From IMG/VR virus record IMGVR_UViG_3300007346_000025, positions 1 to 64,000 of that record: 64,000 nt of DNA; one strand, 5' to 3'. The notes under the pieces are model-generated. The model was not told where the DNA came from. It worked only from the letters and a program-made list of their open reading frames with translations, and made no database searches. Of this stretch, positions 21,401 to 38,485 are shown piece after piece; positions within the stretch are counted from its first letter, which is position 1; every line of letters begins with the position of its first letter. A program made the position numbers and the translations under genes. This DNA comes from a virus.

Positions 21401-21487
21401 GATGCTCTTTCTGAAATTGAAAAACAAGCAGAAAAGAAATCTTTGAAAGACTTAGATAATGACTTATTAGATGATATAGATTGTTAG
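15452..21487 (+). CDS. Giant virion protein, 2011 aa, with degenerate PD-(D/E)XK-like region
   Basis: The protein is probably capsid-resident and co-ejected with the RNA polymerase encoded next to it. Residues ~205-250 and ~570-590 contain hydrophobic Gly/Ala stretches (LEELGAAVLAPFTGG; FASGFFMGFLGGGMDK). Long charged helical regions follow. Residues ~1590-1730 resemble a RecB-type nuclease core: GQIDLLV with D1663, then VKVDLRTK with D1679. The usual D-x-K is D-L-R here, so catalysis may be lost. The C-terminal ~250 residues are acidic and low-complexity, and the protein ends DDIDC. It is 4 bases from the next gene. Function is inferred from context; only the overall class is reasonably secure. 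Confidence 0.6.
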   Translation: MMEEMDLNQSLSQETNDLYSGVTDFNEYFPISPSEPPTVTNLGTQNYITGSAPGNLPSQVPKNPAYNFDDHKKAMQNYMWNFAQQNAYDPNAYGKIQSYDLGPTGNAYYRRYAASGLDVMDELGFFPTKDNEQTWNDNTSWTDDFSRMITNSFGTLFYEGVVSGPKSLSRWLQGADFFDVDPEAAMNYERASAIGYSSRKGAGAFTSNLVMNFGYTAGIISEIMLEELGAAVLAPFTGGASSAAVTANAARRLNRLSHIDMSTLRVAKGFDASMDGARQFGNVLTELNDINNARKTYEAVKTSNNMLRGEKFFSNYFVKTLNPATQTVSELYDIYRAQDNLAGFASMSRTLGAFYRDIRTINMARSESALEAGMVQNKVFEDLYNKYYAENGEVASDEEMRNMMNQAHAAGIETSMYNFPLIYATNKVTFSNLLSKGKISNYINQSIRELGEVEAGRFGKLGKVVYNQSTKQFEFWKSGLKSWWKGWRADPFYKSVGKTVGYFKANISEGIQETFQEVIADAAEKYYVETYDSDLVQKQMYKNGQLPYLNITGEYFAKGFERFNPFTTAEGLDIFASGFFMGFLGGGMDKVINNTFIRANRIVQPEKYKEYKEKKLEITRDLVNSLNGQGVSNFINSRMWDAGVQSKAAAAKRKGNKKELEDAENEAFIAHFTVLSENGVLDQYLDGLLSLNKLGDEEFIDAMDNSITAEQIPQAKQKITDIVDRAKKLESKYNYYKEKYPSPVDMKLFDPGASEDYTEAYIMNQAWEYATKQAVFYNESFENTMQRMKDIMELQYNERPVSKMTKRQSDVLFVPKLLSNEIGLLQNEIDALSELDDPASKELLKTKKKELNALIKYKEKFDSFDRYYHRGRYIEGVKEKLSKERGGVEITNEEASAYILEALGVDEATEEKELKLISELETAYKEYLRGISEVEDDYIFTDGIDTAFERLLDYYKLDNESRTLAEGINLLNDPMGYINLVERNKQWMTDLYSRRSEYYEKLVKAQLEQQENNALLNALADEGIFVSVDDFKKWIDFRIPPKEFYDQARGIVIPEGSPTYDKYYFLFERVAKLSEDTSTEIVEDTMDTALKNELGRLDLEKQAKIDSLPKMTVREDLSEVLPNRGKTMGIRRIAGQIPIGNYADATYMDQDVEEVLTFYKDSNGNLFYVVDGNVTNQVESNLAYKFTKAQVFNFAEKPDQVVVDNLEKDYEELKNAVKERYAKAKENLKQDKQAEKEKVYTPDTDLDEMPNSLKKELYELFKKEEFDKLPEEVRVNMKYNQEQNLFVKFIQSNLAAKEVIDNYNKKQKATKATAPTGEKNDFTFKFLGKEVNTKDLTAVELRSYQRRLKQTISGLTEKQRDNSITPEEKTELANAKVVSIDIEKLIKTRSKNELSPELQEAVKKVEDIEAKQENLITTELGVVVDNVVHRPVTQVTIDSTQKNAANIDAKKADVEKYKGKSKFSYTIQGNNVYLAPSLSVENNHEELKNTIFDFLNILSKNKDLKYLEGGIKRVIESSRTWYPFSVLGDYLAGRYNTTIDKVISQFKSADFTQNELDVLKYSLENRTSPYAEQTTLEQSSTTPQSTANESISFINEQLDNLFTKDTRPVFDETKISREAFDNLFGDNGIFTTLKKREENGEIYITSRNLKVYDTDLKLAGQIDLLVADTKKNLTIVKVDLRTKEQWNAFDKKNNDQLLPQTLNANLLQRMTGVAPKVALMPIEIITDKSGKITSATKPSRENLLDTEFLITLDKNLVKDQAEGIVSAVKPVPEIQPTVQMPADAQSSDDQQSPAVESEGDPVDPKDAYKSENERITSEDIAEKLKSVTTEPQLLKLKIQVNLDIAEGKILPEDIDKITEMLDNKDLSLSEEIDPKISPDNMIKGTQLVAKSLIFTDKNQTEIFAEEDDTVVITSTNKKEGTVTVQPLGKKTRLKLTRDELNNLFTEKEAVMEAKEKPTTKPDKESKANVVETLDAVDTFVADQDALSEIEKQAEKKSLKDLDNDLLDDIDC

Positions 21488-21490
21488 ACT

Positions 21491-24400
21491 ATGAAAATTA
21501 CATGTGCATTAAGCCAAAATCAAATTAAGAATCTATACAGTAATGTGTATGGTAACATGCTCAGCTCATTAAAAGAAGATACTCCTTTTGATGTTAATAC
21601 ATACATGGCAAGTGTATTTGATAAGATTAGCCAGAAGTCTAGTCCAGAAAATGCTGCTAAGTTTGTACAACAAATACCTAAAATGGTTTCTGTTGCTGCT
21701 AACCGTGAAGATTTATTTGACCTAGAAATTGACCTCAATGCAGTTAGAAAACTTGTAAAAGAGTTTGCTAATGAAGATACGGGAATTGAATCTGTAATGA
21801 AAAGATTTGCTCCTAAAAAATCTTCAAGTACTAAAAAAGAGTTAACAAATAAAAAAGCTAATGAAGCTTTTGATCCTACACAAACAGAGGATAAACCTGC
21901 AGAAACAAGACCATTATCATTAAAACCTTTCTCAATCTTTAATACAAGTTATCAAGAGTTTGAGGCAATTGATCCTAAAGCAAAAGAAGAAGGATACCAA
22001 GAAGTAGCAGATGAAACTAAAGAATTTATATATACTGCACTTGGTAAAATTGCTGCAGCAAATACTGATCTTGATAATGCTATGGATACCGCACAGTATC
22101 AAGGTAAAGAACTTAGACTTAAACCTATAGTTTTAGCTTCAGCTCCTGTTGAAATGCTTGATAAGTATTCTACAAGAATTAAAAATGTATCTACATTTTT
22201 TAGAAACTCTAATAAGAAAAACAATAGAGTAATTCAAGCCACTGAAATTATCTTAATGGCAATTTCAGATGAACAAGGTCAACTACTCTATTTTGATAAT
22301 GAAGGTAATATTGTAGATACTCCAGAACAAGGAAGAGTTGTTTATCAATTTTTAAGAAATGTAATTCAAGAGAATGGTAAATATGTAGATGTAAATATCT
22401 ATGGTTATTCTAATCAAATTGCATCACCTGAAGAAATATCTAAAGCTACTGGTGTACCAGTAGAAGAAGTTGCTAAAAATCAACAAGCTGACTTTAAAGC
22501 ATTGTATGATTATAAAAAATCTATCTTAGACGGTAATATAGCACTAGCACCATTAACAGGAATTAGTGAAGGAGTTTCTCCTAAACAATCTAAACAAATT
22601 ATAACATTAGCTAATATAAATCAATTTCCTTTTGGTAGTGATTCAATATTTAAATCTATTAAACCAGTTAAGACACCAAGAGGTATATTTAAAGATGGGG
22701 ATACTACAATTACAATTGAAGGTACTGAATATAAAATTGATAGACCAAATGCTACAGATGACATTATTAATAAAGTAGCTGATGTATTTAGTAATCCTAA
22801 TATATCTAATAAACAAAAATACAATTTCTATTTACAGTTTTTTTCAAAAAAAGCATCTCCATATACAAGAAGACATAATGTAGAATATGCTGAATCAACA
22901 GATGAATTAATTTTTACTTATTCTCCCACTACTTATGCTGAAAAATATTCTAAGTTTCAACCAATTGATAATTTAAATACTCCTGAAGCTAAAGAATTAA
23001 TTGTTGATATTTTAAAAAATGCTTCTGGTACAAAAGGAAAGTACTTTTCTGCTAAGATGAATTATGATGAGACTAATTTATCTAAAAATGGTTTTCTAGA
23101 TTATAACTTAGAAACAAGAACAGTAGATGAAGAATTTAGTAATTATATTGAATTACTAAAAACATTACCAAGAACTACTATATACTTTAGTGAATCTAGT
23201 GATCCTAAGAAGTTCAATGCATATATGAACTTTAGAATCCCAACTGAATTTATTAAAAATGTAGAAAAAGCTAAAGAAAATCCTGCTTTAGTAGAACCTT
23301 CTCCAACAAGAAAACAAAAAAATATTCTTGTTGATTATTTAAAAGGTCAACCTAAAATTACTCAGAATCTTAAATTAAATGTATCTGCTACCACTAAAAA
23401 GGGAATGGAAAATATATCTAATGAAGATTCTGAAATAAAAAATATAGATGAATCTAAATTTAAGAGACTAACTAATACTAATGAAAGTGAAAATGGATTT
23501 AGTGTTGAAGATGGTATTCTAAGAATTAGAGTTGGTGGATTAGATGTGTTTGGAAGAACTGGTGGTGCTACTCAAATAAGTTTAAAAGTACCTGAAGGAT
23601 TTAATCCAAATCTTTTTGCTGAAAAACTTAAGGACATAAGTCATGAAGGAGGAATTACAACACCAGAAGCTGTAAATCAAGTTATTACTGATATTAAAAA
23701 TGCTCTTAATCCAAATGTAACTACTGATATATCAAAGCAAGGTGTTGTAAATACTTCTGCTGCAGGCAATGAATTTGGAACTTTTAATATTACTTCTCCA
23801 GTAACAGGAGAATCACTTGTAGTTGCATTAGATAAAAAGTTTTTTAAAGAAGCTCCTTTATTAACTGTTGGTACACCTGTTTCATTAGCATTAACAACTT
23901 CTGAAACAGAAGATATGTATATCCCAGATATTATTGAAGTTAGAAATTCTGAAGGAAAAACTATTGGTCGTGTAATGGAAACAGACTATGGTAAAAAAGA
24001 AACTCCATTAGATAATTATTATAGAGAGCTTAAGAAACAAAGAAGTAAAACTATTGAGGAAAAAATTGAAGAAAGTACTAATACAAAAGGTACTGCTAAT
24101 CCAAAAGATGGTTTAGCTGGTAAGTTTTTCTTAAGAAGTGGACATTTGCAATATGATGCAACACCTGAGCAGGTTAAAAAAGCAGATAGTTGGTGGAATA
24201 CTAGTGATTTAAATAAGTATTTATCTTTTGAACAAGGAGTAGCAATTGTTAACTCAGATGCATTTGCAAGATTTATTGCTTATGGTTCTATTCTGAATGG
24301 TAAGTTAGGGATGATACAAATTGCAAATAAAGGTTCAATGGTAGATATATACCATGAAGCTTGGCATGGTTTCTCTCAGTTATTCTTAACACCTGAAGAA

Positions 24401-27400
24401 AAAACTCGTCTTTATAAAGAGGTACAAAGAAAGTTAGGTAGAAATAAAAAACTTTCATTTTTTGATATTGAAGAAATTTTAGCAGAAGACTTTAGAACTT
24501 ATGCTAAAAATCCAAAGGCTCTTGAAGATAGTCCTGAAAGAAATTCAATCTTTAGAAGAATATTAAATTTCTTAAAAGAGTTATTGGGTATAGGGTCAGT
24601 TACAAATGTAACAGATATTAAAAAAGTAAGAGAACTTTATAATAATCTTTACTTTAATGAAAATCTAAATCAATACACACCAAGTATTGATAATGTAATG
24701 TTTGATCTTCTCAATAGAAATTCTGGACTTCAAACATTAGCAGATGAAAATATTCAAGCTTTAAATAGACAAGATGCAACCACTGTAAAAAATTCAATGG
24801 ATAGTATCATATCTAAACTTACTGATAATTTATACTCAGAAAGAAAAGAAGATATAGAGCAATTGGGTCAGAACAAATCAGCAACAACTAAATTATTAGA
24901 AGATCCAAGAAATAGAAATGCATTGTATTCTTATATCTTTGATCAACTTGACACAAGAAGAATTGAATTACAAGATCAACTTGATAACCTTGAAGATGAT
25001 ACTAAAAACTTTTTAGAAAAACAAAAGTTAGAAAACAATATTAGAATTCTTACTGCTGCATTAGATAACTGGGGTAATCAATCTAATGGTATGATTAAAT
25101 ACCATATAGAAAACTCAGACTTTAATCTTCTAAGAGAAAAGTTTGTAGAAATGACACCTGAACAAGAAGATGCTGTAGAAGATGTTGAAGATACTGATAC
25201 TGAACCAACTGCTGCTGAAGATACTGAAAGAGTAGGTGATAAAAAAATTGGTGATAGATCTTTGCTTGAGTTAGCAGATAAGGAAGTAGTATATATTCTT
25301 AAGAGTCTATTTAAAAAAGATAGATCTGGTAAAGTAATCTTAAATGAACTTGGATTTGAAGAACTTGTAGATTTTAGAAGTACTTGGAATAATGTTGTTA
25401 GAACTATTGGTGGTGAACAAGATCCTATTGAACAATATAAATTATTAAAGGATGCTATCAAAATTCACCCGGAGTTTGAACAGTTGGTAAATTTTAAATT
25501 AGCAGATCCTAATCCAGACTCTGAAAATGCATCTAATAATTTATATGAAGCTAAAGCTACTACAGCATTTTGGCAAACATTTAGTAAACCAAGAGTACCA
25601 CTTTTACAAAGCACTATTTTTACAAATGGTATAACTCAAATTACAGAAGCTTCAATTGAAGCTGTAGATATATTAAGAGGTTTTGAAAATAAATTTAAAG
25701 CTGATATTAATAATGCATATATTATAAGAAGGAATGAAGATAATGTTCCTATGCTTGCACTCCAAGCATTAGTAGAAGATTTTTCAGATAAAAATGGTAA
25801 TCTTGATGATACTAAATACTATGAGTTTGCAAGAAGATTAGGTATATATCTTGATGATATTACTATAATTAAAAGAGCACTTACAAAGAATCAAAAAGCA
25901 GCAGAAGAATATGGTCTTCCTTACATTTTTAAAACAGTAAAAAAAGTTGCTGATTTAGAAGTAAATCCAAATGCCACTGAAAAGCAATTAAAATTTGTTG
26001 AAGATTTTAAGAAAAATCCTATTTTCTATTTAAGAACACAAATTCCTGCAGGAATAATATCTAATAAAGAAGAAACTCAGAAATATGCACTTAAAAAATT
26101 AGCAGAATTACAATCAAAATATGGATTAGATACTTCTAATTTTGGGGTACTTAATGCAGAAGGTAATACAGTATATGAACTTATTGAAAAGAGTACAGCA
26201 AGTAAAATTGCTTATGCTATAAATAAAGCTGAAAAACTTTCTGATCTATGGAATTCTAGTACTCTTAAATACATGAGTTATTTAAATCCAGCTATTAATA
26301 CATTTACAAATAACTCTAGATTTCTTAAAACAATCTTTGACTTTAATGATCCTGAGTTTACTAAAAGATCTGATAAAGAATTAGAATTATTTCTTTCTTC
26401 TGGTACTCAACAAATTGTTAATGAGGAATTCGGAATAAAAGATGGAAATAACACAACTTCATTAGATACAACTAGTAAGTTTCTTCAAGAAATGAACTCT
26501 ATGCTTAAAGCTGGTGTACAAGAATTCATTCGTCATGCATCTAAAAGTTCTGCATTTGGATTAAGAGTTAGCGGTGATATTATTGGTAGACCTGGTAAAC
26601 TAGATAGTGATCCTAGACTTTGGATTGATATAGATATGTTTGCTGATAATACTGCTGACTCATATGCATTAAAGACACATATTGTACCTTATATTGCAAC
26701 TGAAGCCAATAGAATTTATAAGTTTAAACAAAATAGAACTGAATTTGAAAAATATCAAGGATATAATAATGAAACTCCTAGTGGTAAAATGGCTGGAGAA
26801 GTATTTACTGCATTTGATAATGTATTAAGACCTTCAACTAAACAAGCAATATATTCAGCAATTGATAATGCAATACTTAATAAAGAATACTTTGATTTTA
26901 TTTCTTTTATTAAAACTGATCAAACAGGATTAGCTGATAAAATTAGAACTGATGTATTAGATTATTTTAATGAACTAACTGAAGAAAACTATAATATACT
27001 TCAGGAGACCAATTATATTAGTCCTGATATAATCAATAGACTTAAAAAATTTAATTTATCAAAAGAAGAACAAGATAAATTACTTACTAGAGCTTATACA
27101 TTTAACTCTTGGATACATAATTTTGAAACTATCAATCTTATGTATGGAGATATGGCACAGTATAATCATATTAAAGAAGAGTTACATAAAAGAAATACTG
27201 GTTTAACTTCAACAGGTAGATCTTTTAGAACAGACATAGCTGCTCAGAATTTAGTTAAAGGAGCACTTAGAAAAAATTCTTATGCTGAGAAAAAAGGATT
27301 TAACTATGTAGAATATGATGGTACACTTAATACAGCTATCATTCAAGATATAGAAAGATCATCTGTTTACTTACCAGTTATTGAAAAAGCTTTAATTGAA

Positions 27401-30400
27401 GATTATACAAATAAGCTTAAAGAAACAATAAAGGATCCTGCTAAACTTACTGAAGCTGTAGAATATAGAGTTAAGAAGGACTTAGATGCCTACAAGAAAA
27501 TGGTAGAAGGTGATGGTCAAGGGTGGGTTACTTTTGATACTTATAGAATTCTTAAGAATCTAGAGAATGCTTGGTCATATGAGCAAGAAGAATTATTTAC
27601 TAAAATAACTGATGGAGAATTTGTCTCTCCTACAGAAATTATTCAAATGTTCCCAGTATATAAAATACAAAACTTTGGCCACTTAGCTAATACAGGATTG
27701 CCTGTAAATGCTATGCATAAGTTTGCACTTGCTCCATTAATACCATCTATGATTGAAGGATCAGATCTTCAGTCTTTACATGAACAAATGATGGCAAATA
27801 ACATTCAGTATGTTACATTTCAGTCTGGTTCAAAAGTTGGTTCTGTTACTTCAGAAAAAGATTCTAAAGGTAAAGCAGCAGCAGACATCATTTATAAAGA
27901 TGATGAAATGAAAAATCTCAATAGAGATATTAATTTTACTCCAAACACTATTTACGTAGATTATCTTAAAAATGTTACAAATGTAAATAGCTCATATAAA
28001 GAAAAAGCAACATTCTCCACACAGTTAAGAAAATTAATCTTGGGGTCAATGTATCGTGAAGGTAAAATCATTAATCCCAATAATGAAGCAACTGTAAAAG
28101 AATATGAAAAAACTGTTGATGAGTACACTAAACTTTTAAAATTTGAGTTACTTAATGAAATTGGGTATGAAGAAGTAGACGGTAAGTATATTGGTAATCT
28201 TACAAACTTTTTAGATTTAGTTCAAAGAGAGTTAGGTAGAAGAAAATTACCAGAACACCATATTGAATTTGTTGGTCAAAATCTAGATAGCACATTAAAG
28301 ACTGATTTATCATTACACTTAAGAGCTGATGATATAGAAAAAATTCTAGTTAGTCTTATTGAAAAAAGATTTATTAAACAAAAAGTAAAAGGTGAAGCTT
28401 TAGTACAAGTATCCAGTGCTATGACAAATGGAATCTGGTCCACACCAACATTTAAAAAAGCAACAGCTGAAGAAATTAGAAAGTATATTGGCACTAATAA
28501 CTTACCTTTCTATAATCCAAGTAAAGATGGTACTTCAGCAATGAAAGTAGCAATTGCTTTACAGGGAGACTTTATAAAATTATTGAGAAGAAAAGATGTT
28601 GCAGTAATTGACACTGTTGATGGAAAAAGAACTCTTAATAAAAAAGCTAGTCTTGCTAAGTTAAATCAACTTATAAAAGATGAAGCATGGTTAGAAAATA
28701 ATAGAGATTTAATTAGAATGTCTGCTGTACGTATTCCAGTACAGGGTCTTAACTCTATGGAGTTCATGGAAGTCTATGAATTCTTAGATCCTGCAGCAAG
28801 TAATATTATTATTACACCAACAGAAATTGTTGCTAAATCAGGATCTGACTTTGACGTTGATAAACTCATCACTTTTATGCCTAATATAGATAATAGAGGT
28901 ATGTTTATTAAATCTGGTATGTCTGAAGAACAATTCCAAGATTTTGTAAAAAGAAATAAAAACAATAAAGATAGAGTAAAAGAAACAATTAAAACTCAAA
29001 AATCTGCTCTTGAAAATAAACTTATTACAACTATTAATAATATTCTTGCATTACCAGATAACTATGCAAATCTTGTAAGGCCTAACTCTACATATCTACT
29101 TAAAGATATTGCAGATAAACTTCAAGATTTTGTATCTGAGTATGATAGATTTAAAAATAAACTTGGTCAGGAATATGTAACAATAACTGATAAAGAAGAT
29201 AAAAAAGTAAAAGTTATTAGTCCTACAAGAACACTTGAAACTGGATACAATCTTCATAAACATGATGTAAACTTAACTGGTAAGAAAGTATTAGGTATTA
29301 CAGCTATTGAGAATTCATTAAATCCTATTCTTAATTCTTTGGGTGCAGCAATGCCAAAAACATATAAGCATTCTTATTATGATAATGCTATAAAGAAATG
29401 GGTAGAAACTGATACAACTTATAATACCAACTTGTATTTGCCACATAGAAAAATGGCAGATGGTAGAATTTCTCTTTCACATACTGAAAGCTTAGATGGA
29501 GATTCAATTTCTGATGTTCTATCACAAATGATGAATGGTCTAGTTGACGTAGAAAAAGATGCATGGATATTCTTTATACAGGCTAATTTAGAAATTGCTC
29601 CTACTTTATTGTATTTAATTAAAGCAGGTGTACCAAAAGAACATGCAATCATGTTTGTTTCTAATCCCCTTGTTAGAGATTATGCTAAAAATAAAAGGCT
29701 TTACAATAGTGCTTATTCTGAATTATCAGGTAGAAAACTTGATGATAAATCTTATGCTCAATACCAAGCTGCTACAGATGTAATCATTAGTCAACTTCCA
29801 ACACTTATTGAAGATCAGTTATCTAATATTAGAGATACTGAAACTATATATGTAAGAACAGGACGTTTTAATCCATACTTACAAGAAATGGAGTATGAAG
29901 ATATTCCAATGACTAAGTTGCAACTAATTCAAAAAGTAAAAGACAAAAATTTTGCTGAGTCATTTATTAATGTGCGTAAGGATAGTAAGAAAGGTGGGAT
30001 TATATTTAATAAACCATCTATAAGTAATAAAAAGTATTACTTAGACACTAAGTTCTATACTCAAGCATATATAAATAAAAATAAAGAGTTTGACTTAGAT
30101 CTTATGAAAAGAGTTATTCTTGATCCAAAGTCTTCAAAATATAGAGGAGCAGCAATGGCTATGTTTATGCACTTTATAGAAATTGAAAAACAAATCCGTG
30201 GTCTCCAAACATTAAAAAGACTTGCTAATCCAGATACTAGAACTTCTAAAACATTAGAAGAAGTAATTAGAAGAGGTGTATCACTTGAAGAACTTAAAGA
30301 ACTTTCTAAAGTAGATCCTGAGTTAGTAAGAAAATTAGTTGAAGAATCAATTCTTGGAAGCTTCTTTGATAATAAACTCATTGGAGAATTAGTAAAACCA

Positions 30401-32581
30401 TTGTTTCCACTAAGAAATAATGATAAGGTTACTAATTATGTAATTGCATTGCTTCAAACAAAAGCAGGATCTCTAGTTAAAAAATATGGTACTGGTCCTG
30501 AAGCAACAAGAGCATTTATTTCAGAATATAAAAACTCTATTGTAAACTATGTCTTCCAAAACTATATGTCAAACTTTATTGACGGTAAAGGAAACATAGT
30601 AAATGTTCCTACAGAGTATAAAGAAATGCCTGTAAAAATTAAAAAAGGAATTAAGAATGGAGCTCAAGTAGTTGATAATGTTGTCTATATAGATGAAGCT
30701 AGAATTTCTAAAGACTATGCTGAAAAATTATTTGCAGCAGAATCTGAAGCAGAAAATAGCTATAGAGCCCGTGGTCTTAGACCATTTAGAGCAGCAGAAA
30801 ATGTTTTTCCAACTGAATCTAGCTTCTTTAAATATGTAGTAGAAAGAGAGTATCAAAGATCTATGATACCTTTAGAAAAAGCATTGGAAAATAAAACATT
30901 TAAATATCTTAGAAATGTACTTAAATCATCTATTAAAGATGTTAAAACATTAAATGAACAAACTTATGAGGCATTTTTAAATCAAAGAGCTATGATCTTT
31001 GCATTTAATAGAGAAGCTCTTATGAAAACTATTAACTATTCTTATTCAGATCAGTTAATGGCATTAATTAGAGAATTCTCACAACTCAAAGATAAGTACC
31101 CAATATTAAATCAACTTACTAAACCTGCACTTAAAACAGGTGAAAAAGTAATCTCATTAAATGACTCCAGAATGTTAAAAGATCCACAGCTTGCTGAGAT
31201 CTATTATCAGAACATTAAAGATCTTGGGGATCCTACAGTTAAAAAAGTAGCTTTAGAATCAGACAATGAAAGAATAAGTGAGATGTTTGGTATACTTCCA
31301 TTAGTAGCTGTCTACCAACACGGTATTGGTTATAGCAGATTTGGATTTAATGAAGCACTTCCTTATGATAAATTCTTAGAAGTAATGGATTCTGCATCAA
31401 AGATATTCTTAGAAAAACAACTTAATAATGCTACTCTAGGAAATATCTATTTAAAGCTAATGGATCCTAAGAATAAATTATTTAAAGACTTTGTGGTTTC
31501 TCCAAAAGACTTTAATAATCCTACAGAAGAAACATTAGAACCTGAAGTTACAAATGAAGAGGTTGATGTTGAAGAAGAGGTTATTACTACACCATCAACT
31601 CAATTAGATTCTGAAAATACAATTAATATCTATGCAGGTACAGGAGAGAATGCTGAGTTAAGTAATTTTGCTGTAAGACCTTTTTCTCCAGTTATTGATG
31701 GAGTAGAATTAGGCCAATTTAACACTGTTGAGGGAGCATTTCAAGCAATGAAAATACTTAACTACTCAAGTGATAGACAAGTACAGACTGATAAATATAA
31801 AGCATTAAAAACAGCTACTGGTGCAAATGCTAAAGCTATAGGTCAAAAGGTTACTGGTTTAGACAAAAAATCTTGGGATAAAAATTCTTCTAGAATTATG
31901 AAAGAATTATTATTACAATCATTCCAACAAAATCCAGACGTTCTTGCTAAACTTCTTGCTACAGGTAATGCTACTCTCACTCATGTAGGTACTGAAAAAC
32001 CTAATAGATGGACTACAGAGTTTCCTAGATTACTAATGGAAGTAAGAGAAGAACTAGGTGGTACTCAACCTACAGAAATAAATCAAAAAATAAAAGATAT
32101 TATTGATAAAAGTAATTTAGAAAAAGATGAATATGAAGTAGTATTAGTTAATGGTGTTCAAACTTTTGTTGATTTAAGATTAATGCCAGAAAGCATTAAA
32201 AAAGGATATGGTGTATACTATTCTTTACAGAAAGATGGTTTACTTAAAAGAGCGGGTAAAAAAATAATAGTTCCTGGATATGAAGATATACAACTAATAT
32301 ATGATCAACTTGATGGTTCAATAATAGAATTAAGCACAGGATTGTTAATTCCAACACAAGAAAAAACACAAAGTAAAGTTATAAATGAATTACAGGATAT
32401 GTTTGAATTTAGAAATATTAGACTCGTATTAGAAAAATCTGATAAAATAACTGCTAATGAACCTAATACTGTTATCTCAAGTTTGGAAGGTCTATCTACT
32501 CAACCTACTCAAGAAGAATCTAAGAAAAATGCACCGGAAGGTCTACCTCCAATTGACAGATCTATAGACTCTTGTAGTTAA
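21491..32581 (+). CDS. Giant virion RNA polymerase with zincin-like motif and C-terminal NADAR domain
   Basis: This is the largest gene in the window (3696 aa). D2453-F-D2455-V-D2457, in the context SGSDFDVDKL, matches the DxDxD Mg-binding loop of the crAss-like single-chain RNA polymerase. The preceding RIPVQGLNS and VYEFLDP segments parallel the layout around the beta-prime NADFDGD loop. H955-E-x-x-H959 (IYHEAWHGF), with EEILAEDF ~30 residues later as a candidate third ligand, looks like a zincin-type protease. Residues ~3376-3525 are a NADAR (YbiA-like) domain: LSNFAVRPF, VEGAFQAMK with E3414, LLATGNATLTH. The polymerase would transcribe early phage genes after ejection. The NADAR domain may remove ADP-ribose from nucleic acid. 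The intact fusion is seen directly; in-virion processing cannot be judged from sequence. Confidence 0.85.
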   Translation: MKITCALSQNQIKNLYSNVYGNMLSSLKEDTPFDVNTYMASVFDKISQKSSPENAAKFVQQIPKMVSVAANREDLFDLEIDLNAVRKLVKEFANEDTGIESVMKRFAPKKSSSTKKELTNKKANEAFDPTQTEDKPAETRPLSLKPFSIFNTSYQEFEAIDPKAKEEGYQEVADETKEFIYTALGKIAAANTDLDNAMDTAQYQGKELRLKPIVLASAPVEMLDKYSTRIKNVSTFFRNSNKKNNRVIQATEIILMAISDEQGQLLYFDNEGNIVDTPEQGRVVYQFLRNVIQENGKYVDVNIYGYSNQIASPEEISKATGVPVEEVAKNQQADFKALYDYKKSILDGNIALAPLTGISEGVSPKQSKQIITLANINQFPFGSDSIFKSIKPVKTPRGIFKDGDTTITIEGTEYKIDRPNATDDIINKVADVFSNPNISNKQKYNFYLQFFSKKASPYTRRHNVEYAESTDELIFTYSPTTYAEKYSKFQPIDNLNTPEAKELIVDILKNASGTKGKYFSAKMNYDETNLSKNGFLDYNLETRTVDEEFSNYIELLKTLPRTTIYFSESSDPKKFNAYMNFRIPTEFIKNVEKAKENPALVEPSPTRKQKNILVDYLKGQPKITQNLKLNVSATTKKGMENISNEDSEIKNIDESKFKRLTNTNESENGFSVEDGILRIRVGGLDVFGRTGGATQISLKVPEGFNPNLFAEKLKDISHEGGITTPEAVNQVITDIKNALNPNVTTDISKQGVVNTSAAGNEFGTFNITSPVTGESLVVALDKKFFKEAPLLTVGTPVSLALTTSETEDMYIPDIIEVRNSEGKTIGRVMETDYGKKETPLDNYYRELKKQRSKTIEEKIEESTNTKGTANPKDGLAGKFFLRSGHLQYDATPEQVKKADSWWNTSDLNKYLSFEQGVAIVNSDAFARFIAYGSILNGKLGMIQIANKGSMVDIYHEAWHGFSQLFLTPEEKTRLYKEVQRKLGRNKKLSFFDIEEILAEDFRTYAKNPKALEDSPERNSIFRRILNFLKELLGIGSVTNVTDIKKVRELYNNLYFNENLNQYTPSIDNVMFDLLNRNSGLQTLADENIQALNRQDATTVKNSMDSIISKLTDNLYSERKEDIEQLGQNKSATTKLLEDPRNRNALYSYIFDQLDTRRIELQDQLDNLEDDTKNFLEKQKLENNIRILTAALDNWGNQSNGMIKYHIENSDFNLLREKFVEMTPEQEDAVEDVEDTDTEPTAAEDTERVGDKKIGDRSLLELADKEVVYILKSLFKKDRSGKVILNELGFEELVDFRSTWNNVVRTIGGEQDPIEQYKLLKDAIKIHPEFEQLVNFKLADPNPDSENASNNLYEAKATTAFWQTFSKPRVPLLQSTIFTNGITQITEASIEAVDILRGFENKFKADINNAYIIRRNEDNVPMLALQALVEDFSDKNGNLDDTKYYEFARRLGIYLDDITIIKRALTKNQKAAEEYGLPYIFKTVKKVADLEVNPNATEKQLKFVEDFKKNPIFYLRTQIPAGIISNKEETQKYALKKLAELQSKYGLDTSNFGVLNAEGNTVYELIEKSTASKIAYAINKAEKLSDLWNSSTLKYMSYLNPAINTFTNNSRFLKTIFDFNDPEFTKRSDKELELFLSSGTQQIVNEEFGIKDGNNTTSLDTTSKFLQEMNSMLKAGVQEFIRHASKSSAFGLRVSGDIIGRPGKLDSDPRLWIDIDMFADNTADSYALKTHIVPYIATEANRIYKFKQNRTEFEKYQGYNNETPSGKMAGEVFTAFDNVLRPSTKQAIYSAIDNAILNKEYFDFISFIKTDQTGLADKIRTDVLDYFNELTEENYNILQETNYISPDIINRLKKFNLSKEEQDKLLTRAYTFNSWIHNFETINLMYGDMAQYNHIKEELHKRNTGLTSTGRSFRTDIAAQNLVKGALRKNSYAEKKGFNYVEYDGTLNTAIIQDIERSSVYLPVIEKALIEDYTNKLKETIKDPAKLTEAVEYRVKKDLDAYKKMVEGDGQGWVTFDTYRILKNLENAWSYEQEELFTKITDGEFVSPTEIIQMFPVYKIQNFGHLANTGLPVNAMHKFALAPLIPSMIEGSDLQSLHEQMMANNIQYVTFQSGSKVGSVTSEKDSKGKAAADIIYKDDEMKNLNRDINFTPNTIYVDYLKNVTNVNSSYKEKATFSTQLRKLILGSMYREGKIINPNNEATVKEYEKTVDEYTKLLKFELLNEIGYEEVDGKYIGNLTNFLDLVQRELGRRKLPEHHIEFVGQNLDSTLKTDLSLHLRADDIEKILVSLIEKRFIKQKVKGEALVQVSSAMTNGIWSTPTFKKATAEEIRKYIGTNNLPFYNPSKDGTSAMKVAIALQGDFIKLLRRKDVAVIDTVDGKRTLNKKASLAKLNQLIKDEAWLENNRDLIRMSAVRIPVQGLNSMEFMEVYEFLDPAASNIIITPTEIVAKSGSDFDVDKLITFMPNIDNRGMFIKSGMSEEQFQDFVKRNKNNKDRVKETIKTQKSALENKLITTINNILALPDNYANLVRPNSTYLLKDIADKLQDFVSEYDRFKNKLGQEYVTITDKEDKKVKVISPTRTLETGYNLHKHDVNLTGKKVLGITAIENSLNPILNSLGAAMPKTYKHSYYDNAIKKWVETDTTYNTNLYLPHRKMADGRISLSHTESLDGDSISDVLSQMMNGLVDVEKDAWIFFIQANLEIAPTLLYLIKAGVPKEHAIMFVSNPLVRDYAKNKRLYNSAYSELSGRKLDDKSYAQYQAATDVIISQLPTLIEDQLSNIRDTETIYVRTGRFNPYLQEMEYEDIPMTKLQLIQKVKDKNFAESFINVRKDSKKGGIIFNKPSISNKKYYLDTKFYTQAYINKNKEFDLDLMKRVILDPKSSKYRGAAMAMFMHFIEIEKQIRGLQTLKRLANPDTRTSKTLEEVIRRGVSLEELKELSKVDPELVRKLVEESILGSFFDNKLIGELVKPLFPLRNNDKVTNYVIALLQTKAGSLVKKYGTGPEATRAFISEYKNSIVNYVFQNYMSNFIDGKGNIVNVPTEYKEMPVKIKKGIKNGAQVVDNVVYIDEARISKDYAEKLFAAESEAENSYRARGLRPFRAAENVFPTESSFFKYVVEREYQRSMIPLEKALENKTFKYLRNVLKSSIKDVKTLNEQTYEAFLNQRAMIFAFNREALMKTINYSYSDQLMALIREFSQLKDKYPILNQLTKPALKTGEKVISLNDSRMLKDPQLAEIYYQNIKDLGDPTVKKVALESDNERISEMFGILPLVAVYQHGIGYSRFGFNEALPYDKFLEVMDSASKIFLEKQLNNATLGNIYLKLMDPKNKLFKDFVVSPKDFNNPTEETLEPEVTNEEVDVEEEVITTPSTQLDSENTINIYAGTGENAELSNFAVRPFSPVIDGVELGQFNTVEGAFQAMKILNYSSDRQVQTDKYKALKTATGANAKAIGQKVTGLDKKSWDKNSSRIMKELLLQSFQQNPDVLAKLLATGNATLTHVGTEKPNRWTTEFPRLLMEVREELGGTQPTEINQKIKDIIDKSNLEKDEYEVVLVNGVQTFVDLRLMPESIKKGYGVYYSLQKDGLLKRAGKKIIVPGYEDIQLIYDQLDGSIIELSTGLLIPTQEKTQSKVINELQDMFEFRNIRLVLEKSDKITANEPNTVISSLEGLSTQPTQEESKKNAPEGLPPIDRSIDSCS

Positions 32582-32611: not shown

Positions 32612-35600
32612 ATGCCTTGTAAGACTCAAATAAAAAACAAACTAACCGATCAAGTATATGATCTCGCACAACCTGGTTTAGGTATGTCTCAAGCTAATGC
32701 TAATGCACTTGCTGCTGATATAAATAGAAGTTTTGGTACACAGGTGGTTAGATTTAATAGTTATGTTACAGATGATCTTCTTGAAATGGATATTAATATC
32801 CCGCAAAGTTTAATAGATGTTTACTATGATAATGAACTTATATTAGAAGCAAAAGAACTAGAACAAAGCATTGAAGATGCAAGAAGAGCTCAACAAGAAG
32901 ATGCTGCTCGTTCAGGTGTAGAATATACAGATCAGTATTTATTTGATAATTCTTCTGCGGTAGAGGTAGCACTCTCCAGAGAAGGTATTGAAAGAAGGAG
33001 AGATATACAAATAGCAGAAGCACTTGGTGAGAAATATAGTAAAGCATTTAATATTCCTTATCAAATTATTACTGAGGGTCAAGCTATAGAAATTTTATCT
33101 GAAAGCCCAACACCATATAAAGGTAATATGTCTTCTTTTTTCTATGGGGACATAGTATACTTTGTTGAAGGTAAGTTTAAAGCCGGTAATGTAGTGCATG
33201 AGTATGCACACCCTTTAGTAAAAGGTATTCAGTTTCAGAACCCAAAGTTATTTGATAACTTATTTAATCAACTTAGTTTAAGTGAAACCGGAAAAAGAGC
33301 TTTACAGATTGTAAAAGAAAGATATCCTGAACTTGGAACAGACACGGTAAGATTTAAAGAAGAAGCCATTGTTACTGGAATAGAATTAGATTCTAATAAA
33401 AAACTGGATGAGACTATCAAAGATGATAATTTATTCCAAAGATTCATTACTAATGTAATGGCAGCTATTAAAAAAGTTTTAAGGGCTTTATCCACTAAAG
33501 TAAATCTTAAATCTTTGGATTCTACCACTACTAGAGATGAATTAGTTGATATGCTATTAGATGAAGACTTTGTAATTGAAGATTTAGAATATCAATTGTC
33601 TTTACTTCCAGAGTTTAAAAAAGAAGCTGAAAGTTTTCTAAATGATCTAGAAAAAGCTAAGAGTAAGGAACTTCTAACTGTAATTGATAGATACTATGAT
33701 AATGTTAACTTTCAACTTAATAAATTACGTAAGTCTCCTGATCAAGTAAAAAGTTTATTAGAAGGAAAAGTTGGAGAAGATATTTTAAAAAATATTGAAT
33801 CTTTTCTATCCCCATATATTGTAAGAAGTAAAAACTTAACAGCTGAGGAAGTTGAAGAAATTATCAATGCTATTGAAGAGAGTGAAGAAGATACTAGACT
33901 TAGAGCAATTGCATTTGTAAACAGTTTAGCTGAATCACAAGTTTATGCTGAAAGAATTAATAATGCCTTAGAAAAATTAGTTAGTACAAAAAGACACCTA
34001 ACACCAGAAGGAATTACCCAGGTAATTTACTATAAAGATATGTTGTCTGGACAATTTGCATTTTTTGAAGAAGCTGTAAAACAGTTAAATATTCCAAGAG
34101 ATAGTTCTATTATTCAAAAAATTCTTTCTGTAAAACAAGTTATCAAAGATGATCTAGAAGAAATAAATGAGATAATGTTTGATTTTTCTAAAGATTTAAT
34201 GAATGATGCTACTAAAAATATGCAGGAAAATTTAAATGCAGAATTTAAAGATAGGATAACTCAAATACTTAAAGCAGACGGTTTTAAAGAGGCTGATATA
34301 AATAAATTTTTAAACTCTGTTATTGATCTGATTGATATAAATAATAAAAAAGATTTTAAGGAAAGTGAACTTAATGCTTTACTTCCAAAAGCTTCTCCAA
34401 GAATAAGGTATATATTGAGAGCTGTAAAAAAATATGTAACAAAACATATTACACCAGATGTTATTCAAGATTTTCTTACAGGATATACACAAGATATTGG
34501 TCAAATTGGTTCTAGTTTGGTTCCACTTGGTAATATTGATGATGTATTAGGTGCTGTATTTAACTTTATGAAAGATAGAGCTGCAGATACAGATGTAGAA
34601 TCTCAACGTCAGTTAAATCAAATGGCTGATAGTTTATATCCATTCTTAGAAAAAGTAGGTTGGAATCCAAATAAAACTACTCAGCTTGGTGACCTTTTAT
34701 TATTTAAGGATACTGTTAAATTAGAAAGAAATGGTGAGTTAGTTGAAAAAGAAGTATACTCTTTTATTGATAAGTTTAAAAACTATAGAGCTGATAAAAC
34801 CCAATTAGAGTATGATCTTAAAAGAGCTAGAGAATTAAAGGATCAAGAACTTATTGATAGAGCAACTGAAGCTTTATGGGATTTTCATGAAAAATATATG
34901 CATAGAACTTTTACTCCTGAAGTGTATAAAGTTTTAAATATGTTTAAACAAGAAAATACTGTTATACATCCAGAAACAGGTGAAGTTTTAACGGTATCTA
35001 AAGAACTTTCTATGGAAGCATACCGAGAAAGAAAGAAAGCTTTAGAAACTTTAAATACTCAGAATAAAAGAGACTTTACAGAACTTGATGATTTGTTTGA
35101 TTACAATGAAGCTAGTGTAGCTAAAATACAGTATGAAGAACTATATAGTGTTATTGAACCAACAACCGGTGAATACAAACAAGGTGATGAATTAAAAAAA
35201 GTATTACTTAGAATTAAGTATAGAAATGATTCTAGAAAATTCTATGACTTTGATGTAAACTATGATAGAGTTCAAAGAGATCTAGATAATTTTATTAATG
35301 TAAGACTTGCAGCTAGAGGTATTACTCTTGATGCTACACCAGAAAGATTTCAAGCAGAGTTAGATAGATATCTACGTAAAAATTTTAGAGTTGCATACAC
35401 TGAAGAATATTATAAAGAATTAACAGCAATTTTTAATGAAATAGCTAGAATTAATGCTAAAGCTTCTGAATCAGATGTATCTAAAAAACTTGCTAGTTTA
35501 TATGATCAAAGAAAAACATATGTAAATATGGTTACTGATAAAGATGGAGAACCTAATGCTCTTAATCTTGACAGAGTTCAAATTGATCAAGTTAAACTTA

Positions 35601-38485
35601 TAGAAGATGAAATTGTTTCATTACAAAGTCAATTTGATAAAGCTTCTGGATTAACTAAAGAAGAAGCTGCTAGGTTACAGTTTTATGAAGTAAGATATAT
35701 TTCTAAAGGTAAAACTAATGAGTTATCTGATGAACAAAAATTAGAGTACTATAATCTTTCTAACAAATCAAATAAGTTTGGTTTATCTTCACAAGAAATG
35801 ACCAATTTAAGAAACTTATATAGACGTTTATCTGAACTTACTGATTTAATCCCTACTGATTATTATTTTGAAGCTTTTAACACAGCTGTAAATGGTGTTG
35901 ATATAGAGGAAATAAATTTTGAAAATGCTGATCAATGGATTAATTCTGATAATGTAGTATTAGCAAAAGCAGAAAGTGAAAGATTTGCAGAATGGTTTGA
36001 TAGAAATCATTATCAAAAAATGGTATATAATCCAGAAATAAATAGATATGAGAAAAAATATTTTAGAATTAAAGTATGGAGTGTATCAAGACCAACTGAC
36101 CCAAGATATTACAAAAAAACAGAAGTAATTAATCCTGCAACAAAAGAAAAAATAGAAGTATCTGGTGTTCCAGTTTCTAGATACACTATATCTAAAATTA
36201 AAGATAAATATAGAACAGGATATAATCCACAAACTAAAAAAGTTGAACTTAAAGTTGGAGTTCATATTAACAATAAAGGACAGTTTTTACCAAGAGAGTA
36301 CAATCCTAGTTTAGAAAATTCAGCATATGATAATAAGTATATGAATGAAAAGTATTATAAATTAAATACTAATAGTTCTACTTATAAATTACTTCAAAAA
36401 GTTAAAGAAGAATTTCTAAAAATTCAAGAAGGATCAGGAGAATATGAAAAATTATATTTAGATCTTCCAAGATTTAGAAAAAGAACTAATCTTGAAAGAA
36501 TTCAATCTGGTGATATACAAAGAAAGGGGGCTGCTTTTAAAGGAACATTGAAAGATGTTAAAGCCTCATTTAAAGCAGCAGAGGATGATCAAGACAAAGG
36601 TTTTAATGCTAATATTGATCCTTCATTTGTTCCTACGGATATGGATGGAAATCCAATATCAAGAATCCCAGTTCGTGGTCTATTTGCATTAGATGTTACT
36701 GAAACTTCTACAGATGTGTTAAGAGCACTTGGAGAATATATGTATTCAATAAATAAAACTAATGCACTTAAAAAAGATGAACCATTGTATTTAGCACTAA
36801 GAAATGTTTTATCTGATCCTAAAAATGCTGCTAAAAATATTAATCAAGCAAGTTCTACTCTTAGAAACTCTGGGTTAGGTGTAATGAGACTTCTACCTAA
36901 AAGTGAAAACCGTAAACTTAGACTTTTTAATGAAATACTTGAAAGAGAACTTTATGGTCAAGTAACTGATGATTTTCAACAAAATTTTAAATGGTTTGCA
37001 AAAGCTAGTGGAAAAATAATGGGTTTAGCAAGTTTATCTTTTTATGCTTTAGATGTTCAATCTGCAATGAAAAACAGATTTGGTATGACTGTGCAGAAAA
37101 TGATTCTTGCAGCTGGAGGCAGATTTATTAATACTAAATCATTAGCTACTGGTAAAATAAAAGCAGTTAAAGCTATGACAGAACTTACAACTTCTGGAGT
37201 ATATGAAAGAGGAGCTAAAAGTTTAAATATGCAAATGATGGATGCATTTGATTTAATACCTGGTAGAGCTCAATCTGATTTTGCACAATCTCTTACAAGA
37301 ACTATCTTATCAGATGCTAGTAATGCAACATTTTTATATGATTTTAGAAGATGGGTTGCAAATGAAGCATCATTAGAAGTTGGATATGCAGTACTGGATT
37401 ACCAAATGATAGAACAAAAAATGCCTAATGGTAAGTCTAGAATGATTCCATATTCAGAAGCTTTTGAAATAGGACCTGATAAATTATTAAAACTTAAAGA
37501 TGGCATTAATCCTGAATATGGTATGACTCAAATTAAACATACTTATGTTGATGGAGAAACCTATGAAGATTTGGCTAAGATGTATAACACAACTGTAGAA
37601 AATCTTAAGGATTACAATAAAGTAGAAAACTTATCTGAGTTAGACCCTGGTACAGAAATAATAATTTCCAATGCTAAAGAATTTAAAAATATACGTAGAA
37701 GATTAGCTGGTATAAATAAAAAACTCAATGGATATATTATAAGTATTGATAATCCGTCATTAAGTAGAAACTTACTATATAAACTATTTACTTATTCACG
37801 TAACTATGCTACGGGAATGTTTTTACAAAGATTTCAATTTGATACAGATAAAGATAATTTCTTTGGAGAAGTATATGACTGGGATTTAGATACTACATCT
37901 AGAGGTTTTTATATTACAGGAACTATTGCAATTATTAATTTAATTAGAGACTTTCAAAAATATAAAGGAATAATGACTGCTGATGAAGTAGCAGCTGTTA
38001 AACAAATGATATTTGAATTTGCATATTTATTCTTACTTGCTGCTGCTATTTATTTTGTATTTGGGTATGATCCTGGTGATGAAGATAGATGGGAAAAATT
38101 AAAAGGAAGAGAAGAAGAATACGGTAAGGCTGGTTGGATGGCTAATCAAATTCTTTATCAATTAATTATGGTAAAAAGAGAAAATGAAACATTTATTCCT
38201 ATACCAGGAGTAGGTTATGATGAATGGACTGAATATGTATCTACATCAACTATTGCTCTAGGACCTACACTTGAAGTTTATGAAGATCTTGCAGTAGATT
38301 TGTATCGTCTCTTAACAAACAGTGAAAAAGCATACTATAAACAAGATGTTGGTCCATATAAATGGCAAGAAAAAGGTTCTGCAAAAATATGGAATGATAT
38401 AGGTAGAGTATTTGGTATTAAAGGTAAAAATGTTTCACCAGTATGGGCAATTAAAAAAGCTGAAATGGCTGAAAATCTTAAATAA
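32612..38485 (+). CDS. Giant virion protein, 1957 aa: HExxH motif, LysM-like segment, C-terminal membrane helices
   Basis: The N-terminal region carries H196-E-Y-A-H200 (VVHEYAHPL), with EEAIVTGIE downstream as a possible third zinc ligand. This suggests a zincin-type peptidase domain. The long middle is Lys/Glu-rich and helical. Residues ~1643-1688 (GETYEDLAKMYNTTVENL, then GTEIIIS) look like a LysM-type glycan-binding repeat. Two hydrophobic segments near residues 1766-1782 (FYITGTIAIINLI) and 1800-1822 (FAYLFLLAAAIYFVFGY) may insert into the inner membrane. Together these suggest an ejected protein that contacts peptidoglycan and membrane during genome and polymerase delivery. This is inference from motifs and from position as the last gene of the late block. 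A bidirectional terminator follows immediately. Confidence 0.65.
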   Translation: MPCKTQIKNKLTDQVYDLAQPGLGMSQANANALAADINRSFGTQVVRFNSYVTDDLLEMDINIPQSLIDVYYDNELILEAKELEQSIEDARRAQQEDAARSGVEYTDQYLFDNSSAVEVALSREGIERRRDIQIAEALGEKYSKAFNIPYQIITEGQAIEILSESPTPYKGNMSSFFYGDIVYFVEGKFKAGNVVHEYAHPLVKGIQFQNPKLFDNLFNQLSLSETGKRALQIVKERYPELGTDTVRFKEEAIVTGIELDSNKKLDETIKDDNLFQRFITNVMAAIKKVLRALSTKVNLKSLDSTTTRDELVDMLLDEDFVIEDLEYQLSLLPEFKKEAESFLNDLEKAKSKELLTVIDRYYDNVNFQLNKLRKSPDQVKSLLEGKVGEDILKNIESFLSPYIVRSKNLTAEEVEEIINAIEESEEDTRLRAIAFVNSLAESQVYAERINNALEKLVSTKRHLTPEGITQVIYYKDMLSGQFAFFEEAVKQLNIPRDSSIIQKILSVKQVIKDDLEEINEIMFDFSKDLMNDATKNMQENLNAEFKDRITQILKADGFKEADINKFLNSVIDLIDINNKKDFKESELNALLPKASPRIRYILRAVKKYVTKHITPDVIQDFLTGYTQDIGQIGSSLVPLGNIDDVLGAVFNFMKDRAADTDVESQRQLNQMADSLYPFLEKVGWNPNKTTQLGDLLLFKDTVKLERNGELVEKEVYSFIDKFKNYRADKTQLEYDLKRARELKDQELIDRATEALWDFHEKYMHRTFTPEVYKVLNMFKQENTVIHPETGEVLTVSKELSMEAYRERKKALETLNTQNKRDFTELDDLFDYNEASVAKIQYEELYSVIEPTTGEYKQGDELKKVLLRIKYRNDSRKFYDFDVNYDRVQRDLDNFINVRLAARGITLDATPERFQAELDRYLRKNFRVAYTEEYYKELTAIFNEIARINAKASESDVSKKLASLYDQRKTYVNMVTDKDGEPNALNLDRVQIDQVKLIEDEIVSLQSQFDKASGLTKEEAARLQFYEVRYISKGKTNELSDEQKLEYYNLSNKSNKFGLSSQEMTNLRNLYRRLSELTDLIPTDYYFEAFNTAVNGVDIEEINFENADQWINSDNVVLAKAESERFAEWFDRNHYQKMVYNPEINRYEKKYFRIKVWSVSRPTDPRYYKKTEVINPATKEKIEVSGVPVSRYTISKIKDKYRTGYNPQTKKVELKVGVHINNKGQFLPREYNPSLENSAYDNKYMNEKYYKLNTNSSTYKLLQKVKEEFLKIQEGSGEYEKLYLDLPRFRKRTNLERIQSGDIQRKGAAFKGTLKDVKASFKAAEDDQDKGFNANIDPSFVPTDMDGNPISRIPVRGLFALDVTETSTDVLRALGEYMYSINKTNALKKDEPLYLALRNVLSDPKNAAKNINQASSTLRNSGLGVMRLLPKSENRKLRLFNEILERELYGQVTDDFQQNFKWFAKASGKIMGLASLSFYALDVQSAMKNRFGMTVQKMILAAGGRFINTKSLATGKIKAVKAMTELTTSGVYERGAKSLNMQMMDAFDLIPGRAQSDFAQSLTRTILSDASNATFLYDFRRWVANEASLEVGYAVLDYQMIEQKMPNGKSRMIPYSEAFEIGPDKLLKLKDGINPEYGMTQIKHTYVDGETYEDLAKMYNTTVENLKDYNKVENLSELDPGTEIIISNAKEFKNIRRRLAGINKKLNGYIISIDNPSLSRNLLYKLFTYSRNYATGMFLQRFQFDTDKDNFFGEVYDWDLDTTSRGFYITGTIAIINLIRDFQKYKGIMTADEVAAVKQMIFEFAYLFLLAAAIYFVFGYDPGDEDRWEKLKGREEEYGKAGWMANQILYQLIMVKRENETFIPIPGVGYDEWTEYVSTSTIALGPTLEVYEDLAVDLYRLLTNSEKAYYKQDVGPYKWQEKGSAKIWNDIGRVFGIKGKNVSPVWAIKKAEMAENLK

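Follow-up and report, generated by a model that had tools for sequence, protein, structure and literature searches.

Why does a giant phage RNA polymerase (RNAP) carry, near its C-terminus, a NADAR domain of the kind that removes ADP-ribose from nucleic acids? The question is raised by an uninterrupted open reading frame (ORF) of 3696 amino acids (aa) in IMG/VR virus record IMGVR_UViG_3300007346_000025 (positions 21491-32581, plus strand, as for all window features below). The window analysed here is a 64-kb stretch of this 72.8-kb record, which is possibly incomplete. A preliminary description had proposed from the sequence that the NADAR is fused to a virion RNAP, that it is delivered together with the polymerase, and that it could protect incoming DNA or early transcripts from ADP-ribosylation by DarT1-type systems. 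Our analyses confirm the fusion and reveal that the NADAR is an optional cassette, found in many related polymerases, that has moved domain by domain between distant ones.

The domain occupies aa 3372-3528 (31604-32074; 471 bp, the length of the segment common to two collected loci, L021 and L022, that are compared below). The Pfam NADAR family PF08719 matches aa 3387-3498 with an E value of 7.2e-13 and 49.5 bits (cut-off 35.1), and this is the sole NADAR of the whole 72.8-kb record (E 6.5e-16). PF08010 (gp30.3) also hits this stretch (E 1e-8), its 35.5 bits falling just under the cut-off of 36; the NCBIfam model TIGR02464 (riboflavin N-glycosidase domain) is likewise sub-threshold (51.9 bits versus 73.7). 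An AlphaFold2 model using 51 aligned relatives was obtained with a predicted local distance difference test score (pLDDT) of 90.2 and a predicted template modelling score of 0.87. Foldseek matched this model to YbiA (E 1.4e-7) and to the ADP-ribose-bound NADAR of P. nicotianae (E 5.8e-6), with no further significant match. VIA-align placed the P. nicotianae structure 8BAU closest (Z 17.0, root-mean-square deviation 2.1, 143 residues, 27% identity), followed by YbiA (2B3W; Z 13.9) and the G. lovleyi NADAR (8BAT; Z 8.9). The three peptides quoted in the preliminary description are present, and its coordinates and its choice of E3414 as a catalytic residue are correct.

The catalytic positions E3414, K3421 and H3498 are all intact. 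By alignment and spacing, E3414 (31730-31732) corresponds to E43 of the P. nicotianae NADAR and E88 of the E. coli C7 NADAR, and K3421 (31751-31753), seven residues later within the same TVEGAFQAMK motif, corresponds to K50 and K95, respectively. The third catalytic position, equivalent to E125 and D171 in these two proteins, is H3498 (31982-31984), which resides within LTHVG. A further lysine, K3448 (31832-31834), is by spacing the counterpart of K75 and K115, the latter being required for DarT1 rescue by the E. coli C7 NADAR in vivo (PMC11543638). Lysine is found at this position in 55 of 67 relatives and arginine in nine. Of the ligand-binding positions that PMC11543638 lists for the P. nicotianae NADAR, G78 and W89 map onto G3451 and W3462, and the 36-residue spacing between W3462 and H3498 equals that between W89 and E125. 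Equivalents of E3414, K3421 and T3497-H3498 are kept in all 66 comparable relatives; the invariance of the glutamate is partly selected because FNTVEGA was one of the two patterns used to scan for the collection, a bias of which the K, W, H and R positions are free. The literature divides NADARs by their third position into Glu (YbiA), Asp (DarT1-linked) and His (phage gp30.3) classes, and on this residue the window NADAR is assigned to the His type of gp30.3 phage NADARs.

The host protein of the domain was evaluated separately. It carries the RNAP catalytic DxDxD motif as DFDVDK (aa 2453-2458; 28847-28864), and D-F-D-x-D-K is invariant in 17 diverse RNAPs. For comparison we used gp66 of the Cellulophaga phage phi14:2, the crAss-like RNAP whose structure is known. 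A 1000-aa RNAP region of the window ORF found no match in the PDB by phmmer, and homology to gp66 was therefore established with a profile instead. This profile, built from ten RNAPs of the clade, matches gp66 at E 1e-40 and reported none of 50 shuffled copies. A nucleotide search of INPHARED with the window RNAP region gave no match. On motif and profile, the assignment of the ORF as a crAss-like virion-type RNAP is confirmed. Homologous RNAP proteins of phiCrAss001 were identified as virion cargo by mass spectrometry and are modelled as being ejected in a partly unfolded state (PMC10172136); results on the virion presence of the phi14:2 RNAP and on early-gene transcription are reviewed in PMC10136315. 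Because the phiCrAss001 proteins are virion cargo that is modelled as ejected, the delivery with the polymerase put forward in the preliminary description is a fair inference, with the window RNAP tied to it by homology only.

Comparison with the nearest relative, L074, reveals the boundaries of the inserted material. The RNAP of L074, with 76% identity over 2677 aa, shares the conserved tail NAPEGLPxIDRSIDSCS and its terminal cysteine (32526-32581 in the window) but has no NADAR. A 998-bp segment of the window (31528-32525) has no counterpart in L074; its flanks, which align at 79% and 80% in DNA, lie 128 bp apart there. This segment comprises an acidic linker, TEETLEPEVTNEEVDVEEEV, the NADAR itself, which consists of the YbiA core without an N-terminal extension for binding single-stranded DNA (ssDNA), and a module of about 110 aa with a further linker (32075-32525). 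The linkers flanking the NADAR hold more disorder-prone residues than the protein overall, and no relative of the ~110-aa module was seen in the remaining RNAP ORFs of the collection. Base composition distinguishes the cassette from the RNAP gene only weakly (33.5% guanine plus cytosine, versus 29.1% for the remaining gene). L074 is thus a clean empty site, and the NADAR is an optional cassette. When relatives were also gathered by an RNAP-core search that is independent of the NADAR, the domain was present in two of the 80 nearest loci, both already recovered by the NADAR scan. Vertical inheritance as a polymerase part was rejected on this count and because NADAR positions are unclustered on the tree. 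The preliminary description had counted absence of the fusion from close relatives against its proposal; such absence is literally found in L074, but the overall distribution is that of an optional cassette and not of an accident.

A second optional-NADAR pair, independent of the window and L074, occurs among Kolpueviruses. The polymerase of cr126_1 has a NADAR near its N-terminus, and the 87% identical RNAP of the cultured phage frurule is empty there. Conversely, the frurule RNAP carries in its C-terminal part a different insert of about 140 aa that cr126_1 is without. A Pfam scan gave no family for this insert; NCBIfam and a fold search identified it as an A1S_2505 domain (E 1.8e-30 in NCBIfam). 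For the related insert of L014, the structure model resembled macrodomains, TARG1 most closely (Z 11.2), with DarG matched as well (Z 10.1). Judged by these models, cr126_1 would carry the fold of DarG1 (NADAR) and frurule that of DarG2/TARG1 (macrodomain-like). A1S_2505 domains (NF049995) within RNAPs, for example in L073 (12010-12441), L014 (9539-9964) and L057 (9521-9964), either alternate with NADAR or accompany it, and both domains are present in L057, L007, L014 and L041.

This add-on has also been passed, one domain at a time, between phage polymerases that are only distantly related. L021 and L022 have 471 bp in common at 97.5% nucleotide identity, corresponding to the NADAR, and nothing else within 18-20 kb, and their RNAP cores are 24% identical. 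A separate contig, L066, independently reproduces the arrangement of L021 (99.9% over 10.9 kb). L029 and L034 have 447 bp in common at 92.6%, although the domain follows the DxDxD motif in one protein and precedes it in the other, and NADAR-limited sharing is likewise observed for L026/L057, L052/L068, L031/L057 and L019/L033. N- and C-terminal cases are intermixed on a NADAR tree whose starred branches require at least four changes of position, this being a quick tree with many weak forks. The transferred NADARs have ratios of nonsynonymous to synonymous substitution rates of 0.08-0.33, indicating purifying selection. The moves could reflect either new insertion of the domain or recombination within it that replaces a resident NADAR. 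Domain-precise transfer between polymerases that are about 24% identical shows a route by which giant phage proteins acquire new functions.

The fusion also recurs in other viral contigs. An alignment-based scan recovered NADARs in 65 IMG/VR viral contigs (a single-sequence scan of viral contigs gave one locus), and in at least 55 of the 65 the NADAR and the DxDxD motif lie in one ORF; in most of the remaining cases the ORF is truncated at a contig end or is recoded. The NADAR lies mostly on the C-terminal and sometimes on the N-terminal side of the motif. RNAP-associated NADARs in INPHARED are those of cr126_1, cr130_1 and cr131_1, the last in an RNAP split by TAG codons, and a scan of 84,980 species genomes yielded three loci only, L154 (below) among them. 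Because the scan patterns were taken from crAss-type NADARs, these counts describe this subtype and not NADARs generally. An assembly artefact or chance frame is ruled out by the Pfam and fold matches to a single ORF together with this recurrence.

Several loci in the collection depart from the common pattern. A contig binned in a metagenome-assembled genome of Pseudomonadales (L154, WLWP01000004.1, 8001-8444) holds a crAss-like RNAP-NADAR fusion and is, for that reason, probably a misbinned phage. NADAR-bearing RNAP ORFs continue through in-frame stops in L003, L002, L053 (TAG) and L048 (TGA), which suggests stop-codon reassignment. Two NADAR ORFs, in L155 (JAFUZI010000038.1; 2136 aa) and L055 (2630 aa), have no RNAP motif and show the C- or N-terminal cysteine of the upstream or downstream protein of the block described below; judged from these, the cassette may also ride on other block members.

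NADAR is one of several domains appended to these polymerases. Pfam searches of 106 RNAP C-terminal tails, a set enriched for NADAR whose counts are not prevalences, identified AlkB-like 2-oxoglutarate-Fe(II) (2OG-Fe(II)) oxygenases (10), PIF1/UvrD-type helicases (10), cpYpsA SLOG (10), DUF7831 (9) and ART-PolyVal (4). Cassettes can be chained, as in L019, where the order is RNAP, oxygenase, NADAR and helicase. Example tails with accessory domains are located in L019 (8999-12598), L069 (9830-14515), L087 (12950-16222) and L098 (12950-17455). A RecD2/PIF1-like helicase and DUF1848 are also encountered, and DUF7831-like sequence follows the NADAR in cr130_1 and cr131_1. Across relatives, the cassettes found on these tails are therefore of several kinds (NADAR, macrodomain-like, ART, SLOG, helicase and AlkB-like oxygenase), and they would be injected with the polymerase.

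What, then, could an optional and mobile NADAR do on a polymerase? Its distribution is more suggestive of a tool for early counter-defence than of a polymerase part, and we infer that this copy is enzymatically active, is ejected and acts on nucleic acid. In the mechanism that we propose, the NADAR would be packaged with the polymerase, be ejected into the host within the same polypeptide, refold in the cytoplasm and act from the first moments of infection. Its task would be to free guanine bases of ADP-ribose, in phage DNA or in early transcripts close to the polymerase, and this removal would serve counter-defence. Nucleic-acid-linked ADP-ribose is favoured as the substrate because of the seat on a polymerase and the repair-like companion cassettes; four E. 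coli-related NADAR subtypes, including T4 gp30.3, hydrolyse guanosine-linked ADP-ribose in vitro (PMC11125620). We judge the chances of this counter-defence mechanism to be evenly balanced, since several points weigh against it. The His-type gp30.3 of T4 failed to rescue E. coli from DarT1 (PMC11125620), and soluble ADP-ribose derivatives are, as argued by Iyer et al. (PMC9503650), the main targets of phage NADARs. The window NADAR has neither the Asp of DarT1-linked NADARs nor the ssDNA-binding extension at the N-terminus. Most close RNAP relatives are without the domain, so it is not needed for transcription, and the window RNAP is placed in virions through homology to phiCrAss001 only.

Some of these points also speak for a strong rival, in which the same ejected cassette would act on a soluble product of host immune systems (TIR, SLOG or NADase-type), either an NAD+/ADP-ribose signal or a toxic metabolite. 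The general argument of Iyer et al., the absent DNA-binding extension and the failure of gp30.3 against DarT1 are all consistent with it, and cpYpsA SLOG, DUF7831, ART-PolyVal and A1S_2505 on related tails would fit a broad ADP-ribose metabolism. However, a soluble substrate offers no obvious reason for the seat on the polymerase, except as a ride into the cell. Every tested NADAR acts on guanosine-linked ADP-ribose in nucleic acid in vitro, and the AlkB-like oxygenase and RecD2/PIF1-like helicase cassettes suggest nucleic-acid repair. We regard a soluble substrate as possible but rather unlikely.

The narrower proposal that the NADAR is specifically an anti-DarT1 factor appears improbable. 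DarG1 antitoxins are NADARs, E3414 and K3421 are conserved, and K3448 or its arginine substitute occupies the K115 position in nearly all relatives. Nevertheless, histidine replaces the essential Asp171, the ssDNA-binding extension is missing, T4 gp30.3 does not rescue, and the fold is nearer to a non-DarT1 NADAR (8BAU) than to that of G. lovleyi (8BAT). No DarT (PF14487) match was found across the 72.8-kb, possibly incomplete contig. The DarT1-type target named in the preliminary description is no more than plausible. A toxin-antitoxin unit of the phage's own was rejected, as no DarT was found in this contig.

A non-enzymatic role, with the NADAR as a spacer or a template- or transcript-binding part of the polymerase, would agree with its covalent attachment in very different phages, but it is very unlikely given that close relatives do without the domain, that it switches between protein ends, that its active-site E, K and H are invariant and that its flanking linkers are richer in disorder-prone residues than the whole protein. 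Least credible is a chance passenger with a metabolic role, a YbiA-like N-glycosidase of riboflavin intermediates: despite the TIGR02464 match and the resemblance to the YbiA fold, the equivalog cut-off is missed, His replaces the catalytic Glu of the YbiA family, and a housekeeping role would be odd for a domain repeatedly fused to an ejected protein.

If the counter-defence mechanism is correct, the phage would have an ADP-ribose-removing enzyme at work ahead of all its own gene expression, physically joined to the polymerase responsible for the earliest transcripts. The optional, swappable nature of the cassette makes the effect of host ADP-ribosylation on an incoming genome directly testable, and the culturable member of the Kolpuevirus sister pair, frurule, grows on Bacteroides cellulosilyticus.

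The neighbours of the polymerase share with it a distinctive cysteine pattern. The upstream giant protein (2011 aa, gp67 position; 15452-21487) has a single cysteine as its last residue, the RNAP has two, at residue 5 and at the penultimate position, and the downstream giant protein (1957 aa, gp65 position; 32612-38485) has one, at residue 3. These three consecutive proteins (7664 aa) therefore contain four cysteines in total, versus a content of 1.05% in the minus-strand genes of the window. The pattern of gp67-gp66-gp65 in phi14:2 is the same, with gp67 read in its C-terminal part. Across the window, L072, L074-L153 and other collected loci, the C-terminal cysteine of the RNAP and the N-terminal cysteine of the next ORF agree at 105 of 107 junctions (103 with both, two with neither). 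Upstream junctions have both in 60 cases, neither in seven and the RNAP cysteine only in eight, four of which have a cysteine 9-10 residues from the end. Small ORFs with a cysteine at both ends are intercalated after the RNAP and are followed by a Cys-starting ORF in L077, L084, L021, L033, L145 and L146. In L043, L051 and L054, where the NADAR precedes the motif, the upstream protein is apparently fused to the RNAP and the N-terminal cysteine is gone.

This arrangement of residues suggests that the ejected giants may be coupled end to end for ordered ejection by disulfides linking the C-terminal cysteine of one to the N-terminal cysteine of the next, a reading that cysteine-free NADARs (64 of 66) would fit. 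Disulfides are known elsewhere in the phiCrAss001 particle, and our literature search found no paper on end-to-end disulfide coupling of these ejected proteins. A broader and more tentative picture, to which we give slightly less than an even chance, is that of a disulfide-joined ejected train in which the polymerase would serve as a cargo bay for exchangeable, mobile cassettes (NADAR, TARG1/DarG-like macrodomain, AlkB-like oxygenase, helicase, SLOG and ART) that neutralize defences or carry out repair during first transcription.

Several known systems are close to this one. The window NADAR resembles the gp30.3-type NADARs of phages (T4 gp30.3; PF08010/PF08719) in being phage-encoded, in having His at the third catalytic position and in consisting of a YbiA core without an N-terminal extension. 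However, gp30.3 comes from a T4-like phage, where it forms a protein by itself, whereas the window NADAR is embedded in a 3696-aa polymerase. DarG1, the antitoxin of DarTG1 (BC4488 family), has the fold, the catalytic Glu and Lys and the lysine at the K115 position in common with the window NADAR, but the latter has His for Asp171, lacks the ssDNA-binding extension and has no DarT match in its contig. The YbiA family has Glu at the E125 position where the window NADAR has His. The RNAPs phi14:2 gp66 and phiCrAss001 gp50 share with the window protein the DxDxD core within one giant ORF, and phi14:2 has the same three-gene neighbourhood. Unlike these polymerases, the window protein has an additional insertion of about 1 kb bearing the NADAR before its C-terminal tail, and phi14:2 and phiCrAss001 gave no match in the NADAR searches.

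Polyvalent proteins and virion-packaged NADAR, Macro and ART domains likewise place an accessory ADP-ribose-handling domain in a large virion-class protein (PMC9503650). According to that survey (Iyer, Burroughs and Aravind), in which crAss-like phages do not feature, viral NADARs other than those in RNA-virus polyproteins typically stand alone; the window differs from its cases in having an RNA polymerase as the carrier and in that the domain is transferred as a precise cassette. The tail-tape-fused virion RNAP of phage P23-45 is likewise reported to be a giant protein (PMC10770324) that joins a virion RNAP to another function, its partner being a tape-measure protein and that in the window a predicted ADP-ribose-acting enzyme. 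Our search of the crAss-like phage literature, which left the primary phi14:2 RNAP paper outside its scope, found no description of a NADAR-RNAP fusion. Thus, although phage NADARs and virion-carried ADP-ribose enzymes are already known, the use of a NADAR as a cassette that virion RNAPs can exchange seems to be new.

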